This document shows, one piece after another, positions 20,771 to 49,577 of a stretch of DNA of 56,580 nt. The translations under genes and the position numbers were made by a program. The stretch lies in contig JAFGLI010000013.1 of NCBI GenBank assembly GCA_016928115.1, positions 1 through 56,580 on the forward strand, written 5' to 3'. Position 1 is the first letter of the stretch. The number at the start of each line of letters is the position of its first letter. Under the pieces are notes generated by a model, which searched no databases, was not told the DNA's origin, and saw only the letters and a program-made list of their open reading frames with translations. Origin of the DNA: Candidatus Woesearchaeota archaeon. Lineage in GTDB: Archaea > Nanobdellota > Nanobdellia > Woesearchaeales > UBA9642.

Positions 20771-21026
20771 TTTCATCCGACGAAGTCGGACTTAATTTGG
20801 GGTAATAGCCCTTTTCTAAAATCAAAAACATTTTTTGTTTTTGAGGATTAAAAATCCATTATTTTTAATAGGGCTATGCGGGGAGAAGAATCCAGAAGAA
20901 GTTTTTGAGAAAAACTTCACCAAAACTAAGGGTTTCCTCACTTCGTTCGTCAAGCCCTTTTTGTTAAGGGATTAACCGAAGGTTATATCCCTTCTTTTTG
21001 ATTAAACTTTTATTTAGAAAAGTTTA
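20771..21026. repeat. Cluster of inverted repeats/hairpins 3' of tRNA-Leu
   Basis: TCCGAC-gaa-GTCGGA; ATAGCCC..GGGCTAT; GAAGTTTTTGAGAAAAACTTC; AAGGGAT-TAACC-gaa-GGTTA-T-ATCCCTT; TAAACTTTT..AAAAGTTTA. Confidence 0.75.
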
Positions 21027-21169
21027 TGCGGGGAGAAGGATTCGAACCCCCGTAAGCACTAAGCTAACAGGTGTCTTCAGGCCAGTATGCTGAATTCACA
21101 CCTGACATGCCTAAGCCTGTCCCGTATGGTCTCCTGTAAAAAGGGATTTGACCGCTCCGGCATCCCCGC
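21027..21169 (-). tRNA. tRNA-Leu (UAG) with canonical 37/38 intron and an apparent second D-loop intron
   Basis: Acceptor GCGGGGA/TCCCCGC+A; class II variable arm TTAGCTTAGTGCTTACG; anticodon stem ACAGG/CCTGT with CTTAGG loop; 143 nt total. Confidence 0.85.
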
Positions 21170-21192
21170 GAACCTGATAAACCCACTGGCTG

Positions 21193-21363: not shown

Positions 21364-21519
21364 TTTTATTTTCCTCAATTAGTGGGACTTCATTTGTTTG
21401 AAAATTTTATTTTCTAACTTAGGAAATCTTTGATTTCCGTAATTTCCTTTAATGTCCCACAAGTTCCTTTTCCGAGAGTTTTTGAAAAACCTCCGGGTGT
21501 TCCTTTTGTCATTTTTATT
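21347..21519. repeat. 24-bp direct duplication (21347-21370 and 21496-21519) flanking a 125-bp hairpin-bearing insertion
   Basis: Exact GGTGTTCCTTTTGTCATTTTTATT at both ends; the insert carries CTAACTTAGGAAATCtttGATTTCCGTAA and GTGGGAC..GTCCCAC inverted repeat. Confidence 0.8.
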
Positions 21520-24081: not shown

Positions 24082-24266
24082 TAAGTTAGGGAATTCCGTA
24101 ACTTACGAAAAACACCTTGTTTTTTTAAGTTAGGAAAAACTGAGTTTTTCCGTAACTTACGGAAATAATATATTTCCTAAGTTCGAAAATGTTCCATTTT
24201 CGTAACTTACGAAAACACATTATTGTGTTTTCTAAGTTAGGAATTTTGCAAGCAAAATTCCGTAAC
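24082..24266. repeat. Alternating TAAGTTAG / GTAACTTAC array with seven distinct palindromic spacers
   Basis: Four forward and four reverse elements read directly; each spacer is self-complementary; followed by CCTTTATAAAT. Confidence 0.9.
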
Positions 24267-24384
24267 CTTTATAAATCACACTTACAATAAAATTATTAAG
24301 GCAGGGGGATATAACTATATATAATTAGTTAGAATAATTTACATAGTATGATATTTAATGTTAAAATAGGCTGGAGGTTTTCAG

Positions 24385-24972
24385 ATGATTGAAGAAAGAA
24401 GGCAAAATCATGAAAAAAGGCACAGGGAGGAATATGTTATTGTATTAGATTTCCTTCCGAACGGCTATCCTTTTGACAAAAGGCCAAGCCACAAGAAAAA
24501 GCCTATTGCCCAGGCCATTGGAAAGAATTATTTTTCATTGCTTGAAATAGTCCCGAAAAAAGAAATATTCCTGCAGCCTTATTCTGAAGTATATATCGGG
24601 GAAGGTAAAAGGGAGCAGATACATCATATAAAAGGAAGATTAGCGCTGGATAAATTAACTAACACTGCACAATCAGAACTAAAACATATAGTGAAAAAAA
24701 TAGTTGATGAAAACGAGAAAAAATTCGTTGATTTCTTCAATAGGGCACAGCCCCTTACAACCAGGATGCACTCCCTTGAATTACTGCCCGGACTTGGAAA
24801 AAAACACATGTGGGAGATAATAGAGGAAAGAAAAGGAAAGCCTTTTGAAAGCTTTAATGATATAAAGAAAAGGGTAAAGCTGATGCCTGACCCTGAAAAA
24901 GCAATCATCTCAAGAATCCTCAAAGAATTAAATGATAACGAAAAGCATTATGTTTTCGTAGATAAGAGATAA
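24385..24972 (+). CDS. DUF655 domain-containing protein
   Basis: EEYVIVLDFLPNGYPFD...LELLPGLGKKHMWEIIEERKGKPFESFNDIKKRV (HhH-like). Confidence 0.85.
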   Translation: MIEERRQNHEKRHREEYVIVLDFLPNGYPFDKRPSHKKKPIAQAIGKNYFSLLEIVPKKEIFLQPYSEVYIGEGKREQIHHIKGRLALDKLTNTAQSELKHIVKKIVDENEKKFVDFFNRAQPLTTRMHSLELLPGLGKKHMWEIIEERKGKPFESFNDIKKRVKLMPDPEKAIISRILKELNDNEKHYVFVDKR

Positions 24973-27167: not shown

Positions 27168-27692
27168 TCAATTATTTTTCATGACTTCTATTAAACATGA
27201 GCATGGAAATTTTGTTTTTGCCTTTCTTAAGGCATTTTTTGCCAAATCCAGGTTCTGTTTATCCACATCTATTTCAAAAACCGGCTGGTCTTTCTTGACC
27301 TGGGCAGCTATACCTATAACCTTGCCAAAAGACAAAGTCATACCAGTACTCATCCTGTCTGCACCTGCACCTGCAGCTATTGGATTTTCCCTTAATGCAT
27401 GATGGGGATAAACCCTTACTTTGAAATAATATCCCTTAGGGCCTAAAACTTTCTGCATTGTAAAGTTTGCAGTCATCCTTCCTGATTCTAAAGTATCATG
27501 CCTGAGCTGTACTGCTTTTTTCGGCTTTAAAAGTACTTTATACTCAAATTTCCTTCCAAGCTCTCCCATATCAAACTTTGTAACCTTGCATACAGGAACT
27601 GATTTTACATAAGACTTTTTCTTGTATTTAGATTTTCTTGTATAAGGCCTTTCAACTTTTGTGTAGGAAACTCCCTTTCTTAATCTTGCCAT
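27168..27692 (-). CDS. rpl10e: 50S ribosomal protein L16/L10e
   Basis: ARLRKGVSYTKVERPYTRKSKYKKKSYVKSVP...VRVYPHHALRENPIAAGAGADRMSTGM. Confidence 0.93.
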   Translation of the reverse strand: MARLRKGVSYTKVERPYTRKSKYKKKSYVKSVPVCKVTKFDMGELGRKFEYKVLLKPKKAVQLRHDTLESGRMTANFTMQKVLGPKGYYFKVRVYPHHALRENPIAAGAGADRMSTGMTLSFGKVIGIAAQVKKDQPVFEIDVDKQNLDLAKNALRKAKTKFPCSCLIEVMKNN

Positions 27693-27860
27693 ATTATGAA
27701 AAGAAAAAAGATGGGCTTTATAAAGGTTATGGAATTCTATGAATTCATTAACTTATGCTTTATTAAATTAAATTTCAATAATTTTATAAATAATCAAATA
27801 AAATAAAATTATGTTGTCTAAATTCAGATAATCCATAAAAAAGAGGGTTTTAAATAAAAA

Positions 27861-49021: not shown

Positions 49022-49135
49022 GTAACTTACGGAAACACAGAGCGTTTCCTAAGTTAGGAATTCCTTTGGAATTCCGTAACTTACGAAAAACAGAGTTTTT
49101 CTAAGTTCGGAATTTTGCCCGCAAAATTCCGTAAC
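49022..49135. repeat. Second alternating GTAACTTAC / TAAGTTAG hairpin array
   Basis: GTAACTTAC-[GGAAAC..GTTTCC]-TAAGTTAG-[GGAATTCC ttt GGAATTCC]-GTAACTTAC-[GAAAAAC aga GTTTTTC]-TAAGTTCG-[GGAATTTTGC cc GCAAAATTCC]-GTAAC then CTTTATAAA. Confidence 0.9.
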
Positions 49136-49144
49136 CTTTATAAA
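49136..49144 (+). promoter_or_regulatory. TATA-like box A (CTTTATAAA) directly after the hairpin array
   Basis: Matches the CCTTTATAAA element at 24267-24275 after the other array; precedes pop5/psmA operon. Confidence 0.6.
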
Positions 49145-49226: not shown

Positions 49227-49577
49227 ATGTTAAAATTGAAAAAACCTTTATTACCAACTTTAAAGGAAAAAAAGCGCTACATTGTTTACAGGATTATTTC
49301 AGAAAGGAAAATAAACAAGGATGTTTCAAAGGACATTATAGATAAAATAAATAGTTATCTTGGTGTGTTTGAAGGCGCAAAAGCGGGAATAATGAATGTA
49401 ACTTACAACAAAAACAAGCAGGCAGGTATTTTAAAGGTAAGCAATAAAAAATTAAAGGAAACAAAAAGCTCAATAAGCCTGATAAATGAATTAAATAAGC
49501 AAAAAGTAATAATAACAAATATATATGTTTCAGGCATATTAAAAAAAGCTAAAAATAAACTGAAAAATATTGAATGA
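49227..49577 (+). CDS. rnp2: Ribonuclease P protein component 2 (Pop5)
   Basis: LKEKKRYIVYRIISE..., FEGAKAGIMNVTYNKNKQAGILKVSNK; upstream of psmA. Confidence 0.8.
   Translation: MLKLKKPLLPTLKEKKRYIVYRIISERKINKDVSKDIIDKINSYLGVFEGAKAGIMNVTYNKNKQAGILKVSNKKLKETKSSISLINELNKQKVIITNIYVSGILKKAKNKLKNIE

Follow-up and report, generated by a model that had tools for sequence, protein, structure and literature searches.

Arrays of sequence-variable hairpins ending at BRE/TATA promoters in a woesearchaeal genome and its relatives

Inverted repeats are enriched upstream of start codons, with an archaeal peak near -50; the accessible part of the survey reporting this (PMC13155455) presents a bulk enrichment, with no mention of arrays that are anchored at the BRE and have co-varying words. 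In phage N4, promoter hairpins tolerate variation of their stem bases and can extrude at physiological supercoiling (PMC4496689). CRISPR loci combine direct repeats of about 21-50 bp with unique, non-palindromic spacers. The arrays described here are built differently from CRISPR: words of 8-9 nt alternate, and the spacers are palindromic, several of them recurring. The initial annotation of the locus had placed it outside both CRISPR and REP elements, and it indeed falls outside both definitions. Literature searches returned no description of such arrays. With Rfam, the only match at gathering score in the window (the whole stretch analysed, 56,580 nucleotides of contig JAFGLI010000013.1) was a tRNA elsewhere, and matches over the array were weak and attributable to chance.

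Layout of the arrays and their promoters

Direct reading of the sequence confirmed the array, here called A4, at 24082-24267 on the plus strand. Its parts and the gene that follows are:

24082-24267, plus strand: array A4, seven hairpins separated by TAAGTT[AC]G and GTAACTTAC in alternation, with the DUF655 gene downstream
24082-24089, plus strand: word P1, TAAGTTAG; more copies at 24126-24133, 24178-24185 (as TAAGTTCG) and 24233-24240
24098-24106, plus strand: word P2, GTAACTTAC, a BRE-like copy; more copies at 24152-24160 and 24202-24210
24089-24097, plus strand: hairpin 1, GGGAATTCC, the shortest and most distal
24107-24125, plus strand: hairpin 2, GAAAAACACCTTGTTTTTT
24133-24151, plus strand: hairpin 3, GGAAAAACTGAGTTTTTCC
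24161-24177, plus strand: hairpin 4, GGAAATAATATATTTCC
24185-24201, plus strand: hairpin 5, GAAAATGTTCCATTTTC
24211-24232, plus strand: hairpin 6, GAAAACACATTATTGTGTTTTC
24240-24261, plus strand: hairpin 7, GGAATTTTGCAAGCAAAATTCC, promoter-proximal, of a family common to the terminal hairpins of arrays A3, A6 and A8
24262-24267 and 24268-24275, plus strand: BRE (GTAACC) and TATA box (TTTATAAA), directly adjoining the last hairpin
24385-24972, plus strand: DUF655 gene (PF04919, E 1e-70), downstream of A4

The units follow one another in a single direction, P1 (TAAGTTAG), hairpin, P2 (GTAACTTAC), hairpin, P1 and so on. The window contains six copies of the P2 word where 0.18 would be expected, a count that none of 100 shuffles reached. 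Because P1 and P2 are complementary, any hairpin can be extended through pairing of its two flanking words, with a single base left bulged, and adjacent units compete for the word between them. Folded as single-stranded DNA, the plus strand of A4 reaches -47.8 kcal/mol (z = -10.05); the minus strand gives z = -11.5, and the array as RNA z = -9.6.

The initial annotation had reported differing spacers that all form hairpins, set between words that can pair on either side, and both statements agree with our reading, in which nearly all hairpins are close to perfect. It had placed the unpaired base on the 3' arm, which is correct for TAAGTTAG-hairpin-GTAACTTAC units (a G); in GTAACTTAC-hairpin-TAAGTTAG units the base, a C, is on the 5' arm. 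In the unit after TAAGTTCG, one G had been counted twice. The exact end of A4 at the BRE and TATA box was absent from that account, as was a third, single-unit copy on the minus strand at 27717-27756. The two arrays that it listed are both real, but they are not the whole: the genome, a 0.77 Mb assembly (about 774 kb) from an uncultured archaeon, contains at least 10 arrays on five contigs, and the element is patchy across the order. Nor did non-palindromic copies, which it had considered, turn up among the 10 arrays, whose hairpins are again nearly all close to perfect.

The set, 41 units with 35 distinct hairpins, was assembled by pattern searches, a covariance model and inspection; some units were parsed, and stems and loops partly aligned, by hand, and the N padding fits the alignments to the structure. 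Three of the 10 arrays are inside the window, A4 and the two listed here along with a solo unit:

49022-49144, plus strand: array A6, with four hairpins ahead of GTAACC (49131-49136) and TTTATAAA (49137-49144); the Pop5 and proteasome/exosome genes lie downstream
49227-49577, plus strand: RNase P Pop5/Rpp14 subunit gene (PF01900), downstream of A6
27717-27756, minus strand: array A5, a single unit TAAGTTA-ATGAATTCATAGAATTCC-ATAACC-TTTATAAA, upstream of ribosomal protein L10e
27168-27692, minus strand: ribosomal protein L16p/L10e gene (PF00252), downstream of A5
21413-21446, plus strand: solo unit TCTAACTTA-GGAAATCTTTGATTTCC-G-TAATTT, with no BRE/TATA box, beside a tRNA-like sequence

Array A6 (49022-49136) also folds well as a single strand (z = -7.2). 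The solo unit is probably a relic. A few degenerate units occur elsewhere in the genome; three adjoin a tRNA gene or a tRNA-like sequence and lack a TATA box. The tRNA-like sequence in the window lies on the minus strand at about 21030-21166 (region 20790-21170) and is not called by ARAGORN even when introns are allowed; the sequence that follows it contains several unrelated hairpins and repeats part of the tRNA-like 3' end (GCGGGGAGAAG near 20879). Comparable hairpin clusters adjoin tRNA genes at three further places (contig C12 at 8.2 kb, C13 near 7.3 kb and C21 at 27.1 kb).

All 10 arrays end flush at RTAAC(C/T)-TTTWTAAA, in which the TATA element is TTTATAAA or TTTTTAAA, and all have the same polarity. 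This is the archaeal layout of a BRE and TATA box belonging to the downstream gene, so the position upstream of TATA boxes that the initial annotation had suggested checking applies to every array. Conversely, each of the nine exact TTYCRTAACCTTTWWAWA sites (TTYCRTAACC-TATA) in the genome carries an array or a single unit. By Pfam, nine of the 10 downstream genes are housekeeping genes: S2, L1, EF1A, DUF655, L10e, Pop5/proteasome, EF1B, a GTPase and S19e. In the EF1B case, the first gene encodes a small zinc-ribbon protein and the EF-1 guanine-exchange-factor gene comes next. The first gene after the tenth array, an 84-aa ORF, has no Pfam match; this array (A10, L381 3566-3678) has the promoter GTAACTTTTATAAA and shares a degenerate distal word, CATAATTTAC, with the S19e array. 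The distal end of an array often lies 1-22 nt past the stop codon of a preceding same-strand gene. In A1 and A5 the upstream neighbour is divergent, and the constant partner is therefore the downstream promoter. Among intergenic clusters of at least three hairpins in 310 kb, almost all are BRE-anchored arrays. GTAACTTAC itself plausibly descends from a BRE, and we read it as a copy of that element (RTAACC).

Pairing kept while sequence changes

The stems are AT-rich and 8-15 bp long; the spacing of the words varies from 17 to 33 nt, and their TAAC core is conserved. At inner stem positions 6-8, 81 of 88 (92%) position pairs are complementary, against 48 +/- 5% when 3' arms are shuffled between hairpins, with none of 5000 shuffles as high. 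Two-sided compensatory cells, counted from the alignment with N-padded loops, number 80, compared with 28.8 +/- 5.0 after shuffling and 6-19 when partners are slid by one to three columns; across three families the count is 45 against 15.0 +/- 3.4. The variable word position, followed through 18 units from three families, is C-G in nine, U-A in eight and unpaired in one. Palindromic transcription factor sites were considered as the source of the complementarity and rejected: neighbouring sites of this kind would pair only the outer bases, about five, and the pairing of positions 6-8 thus goes beyond them. Compensatory patterns can, however, also be obtained from template-switch mutation. The same hairpins reappear in different arrays beside different neighbours, which indicates modules shuffled between promoters.

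In 72 distinct hairpins, stem mismatches comprise seven G-T and eight A-C against 470 Watson-Crick pairs. The loop-closing pair, tallied from the hairpin list, is C-G in 32 and G-C in 10, and the loop has three bases in 30 of 61. An RNA helix is expected to tolerate G-U on one strand. The lack of a G·U excess, together with the C-G bias at the loop, favours DNA over RNA hairpins; judged from these small numbers of non-independent hairpins, the balance points to structures that act as DNA and could form on either strand. The initial annotation had proposed alternative cruciform or RNA hairpin registers; the sequence allows the alternative pairing, and the mismatch balance tips the choice toward DNA.

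Relatives and turnover

Searches with the exact words gave no match in relatives, and the regions upstream of the EF1A and DUF655 genes of relatives held no arrays. The idea that the arrays are private to this genome was overturned by a covariance-model match in G209, a genome of another family, and by a scan for the BRE/TATA pattern. The G209 array has five hairpins and ends in CCATAACCTTTAAATA; hairpin-foot words in G209 are GTAACCTA and GAGGTTC. In the pattern scan, which covered 353 genomes from the order, 81 contained TTYCRTAACCTTTWWAWA. Among 69 such promoters outside this genome, 15 have a hairpin of 6 bp or longer whose end coincides exactly with the BRE, where 1.2 would be expected from neighbouring offsets. 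These 15 are spread over families f10, f38, f62, f71 and f82, and further array cases were recognized by eye in f25, f37 and f44. In 12 of the 15 promoters, the bases just ahead of TAACC and of the terminal hairpin pair with each other (T..A in eight, C..G in four). Most TTYCRTAACCTTTWWAWA promoters in the order have no array; with so many promoters sharing the BRE/TATA but lacking it, the array is dispensable.

The words had been called invariant, and they do recur within the genome (AACTT/AAGTT); across families they change together, being mostly AACCT/AGGTT in G209 and G042 and still pairing there. A further pair found by eye in G333, AATCC/GGATT, extends the series. Genes at the array promoters of relatives include, by Pfam, L34e, L37Ae, S13 (twice), S12, S3Ae, a proteasome subunit, S19e and CofD. 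Other G209 array genes gave no informative Pfam match; three we take to be PheS, PolB and LonB.

Two wider searches were set aside. The places found by exact-motif scans of collections of genome contigs and viral contigs, more than 200, almost all lack a hairpin and are chance matches, and AGGTT...TAACC-TATA does not serve as a general array marker, most of its matches having no hairpins. Two loci in other genomes have repeats of their own: at L441 (G175:C98, family f80) a different repeated hairpin word, TTGAGTTACTCAAGCTTTGCTTTCGTAACC, stands in several copies before an RTAACC-TATA promoter, and at L396 (G134:C47) a long tandem run of the type ACTTTAGACTTCAG precedes a Pop5-like gene that has this same BRE/TATA.

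The L34e promoter offers a direct comparison between close relatives. In G303, ATTATGCTAACC runs unsplit into TTTATAAA; in G197, AGC-hairpin-CGGGCTATG-hairpin-ATAACC stands between the same two elements. This block of 55 nt, with its two hairpins, separates BRE from TATA precisely at their boundary in three species of one genus (G197, G248 and G311), and at least seven others have the site unsplit. Since the block repeats TAACC at both its ends, the old BRE turns into a P2-like word while the promoter retains a BRE. On the tree, its distribution needs three changes, and a TTTCAATAACC tail is retained in G310 and G213. Given the homology of the insert in three lineages and this tail, we favour old presence with several losses over repeated gains. 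In the L1 array, the next-to-last hairpin is the one that comes last in A3, A4, A6 and A8, as would be expected if arrays grow beside the promoter; they probably lengthen at that end.

Candidate explanations and known systems

Our preferred reading, held tentatively and at a little under an even chance, is that the array would act in cis as an upstream promoter element, composed of DNA hairpins, anchored at the BRE and recognized by structure. Negative supercoiling upstream of strongly transcribed genes would extrude the AT-rich palindromes; alternatively, a protein may read the palindromic geometry and the adjacent TAAC word. Either way, the binding of TFB/TBP and RNA polymerase would be stabilized or tuned at promoters of growth-related genes, and every added block would regenerate a BRE, so that lengthening is promoter-proximal. 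The sequences show position, polarity, conservation of structure and turnover; from these we infer hairpin extrusion, a binding partner and an effect on transcription. Counting against this reading are the order's many array-free promoters with the same BRE/TATA, the degenerate units at tRNA genes, which have no TATA box, and the ability of template switching to give compensatory patterns too. A more specific version, which we consider improbable, is a bistable DNA switch: TAAGTTAG (AGGTT elsewhere) would pair with the BRE-like word to its left or right, and supercoiling or a structure-binding protein would shift the register, setting translation-gene expression. At the promoter-proximal end, the partner on the right is the functional BRE itself, which one cruciform register would free and the other would put in a stem.

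An unlikely but serious contender is that the words are ordinary double-stranded activator sites, TAAC(C/T)TA with its orientation alternating, to which an activator would bind cooperatively, upstream of the BRE, and recruit TFB as EarA and TFB-RF1 do. Known archaeal activators bind one to three repeated sites directly upstream of the BRE (PMC10665913), which counts for it, as do the polarity, the position at the BRE and the TAAC core conserved across families; alternating inverted sites would likewise give complementary words. It does not account for complementarity inside spacers of changing sequence, nor does it explain why the base ahead of TAACC should be complementary to the one ahead of the hairpin, and the spacing varies over 17-33 nt. 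Only slightly less likely is a miniature mobile or REP/BIME-like element, in which a block of ~55 nt with two hairpins would enter at the BRE-TATA boundary, become flanked by TAACC at either end and be moved by a protein acting on folded single strands, either hitchhiking or co-opted later. Precise presence and absence in related species with TAACC repeated, the same hairpins in different promoters of one genome and the BIME-like alternating orientation all fit. In IS200/IS605 elements the guide and cleavage sites are complementary, and the words here are similarly complementary to the presumed junction. Yet a motif scan of 622 kb (about 80%) of the genome found no HUH/Y1-like ORF, and an IS200/IS605-type transposase was dropped as a candidate for that 80%; the only recombinase candidate in the stretches read is a 275-aa XerA-like tyrosine recombinase (L385 4523, G000:C13). 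The hairpin sequences are not conserved as those of REPs are, and the L34e insert, homologous in three lineages, with its TTTCAATAACC tail in G310 and G213, fits old presence and deletion equally well. The arrays could have originated as mobile elements and still serve at promoters today.

Template switching at quasi-palindromes could also make and perfect hairpins with no selection on structure, since it can yield perfect stems in one event and keeps them paired (PMC8794818). The arrays as such a mutational by-product seem quite improbable to us: their location and polarity are fixed, they persist across diverged species, the loop-closing pair is biased to C-G, and the intergenic clusters surveyed in 310 kb are nearly all BRE-anchored. 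A little less probable still is an RNA-level element: an upstream or antisense promoter would drive transcription of the array, which would serve as a leader, as a terminator or in processing. The several arrays that begin just after the stop codon of a same-strand gene, and the RNA fold score of A4, speak for it; against this, G-T mismatches do not exceed A-C, unlike in most RNA helices, the upstream neighbours of A1 and A5 are divergent, and no Rfam family reaches gathering score over the arrays. The arrays also end at the BRE, upstream of the TATA box, and so would lie outside the downstream transcript, given normal spacing of the start site.

Structure in RNA is usually proved by covariation; here covariation is seen in apparent promoter DNA, upstream of the TATA boxes of core genes in several archaeal families. 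If confirmed, the structure-recognized element that we prefer would be a cellular promoter element read by shape and not by sequence, and it might allow reduced archaea to control their ribosome and translation genes together. The arrays are also a natural experiment on how a regulatory array may grow through insertions that regenerate the BRE.

Among described systems, the bacterial REP/BIME/REPIN elements with TnpA-REP (PMC3733652, PMC8266576) share short, clustered extragenic hairpins, alternating orientation and a short invariant foot word. Unlike them, the arrays have TAAGTTAG and GTAACTTAC at the hairpin foot in place of a GTAG/CGTC tag, 35 distinct hairpins in 41 units in place of a conserved palindrome, no Y1 transposase by motif scan in the 622 kb covered, and strict anchoring at BRE/TATA with one polarity. 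Integron attC sites resemble the arrays in keeping structure as sequence changes, in an unpaired base and in promoter-proximal growth; the attC boxes, R'' (RYYYAAC) and R' (GTTRRRY), are absent, since GTTAGGA, GTTAGAA and CCGTAAC deviate from them, and the arrays carry no cassettes. The sites of the archaeal activators EarA, TFB-RF1 and Ptr2 (PMC10665913, PMC5937170) are likewise repeated elements directly upstream of the BRE, but they are sequence-conserved and double-stranded, with no role for spacer complementarity. Finally, the hairpin promoters of the phage N4 virion RNA polymerase (PMC4496689) have variable stem bases with pairing kept and a C-G loop-closing pair, as the arrays do; the N4 promoter is a single hairpin bound by the phage RNA polymerase, whereas here arrays of putatively extruding hairpins stand upstream of a cellular BRE and TATA box.
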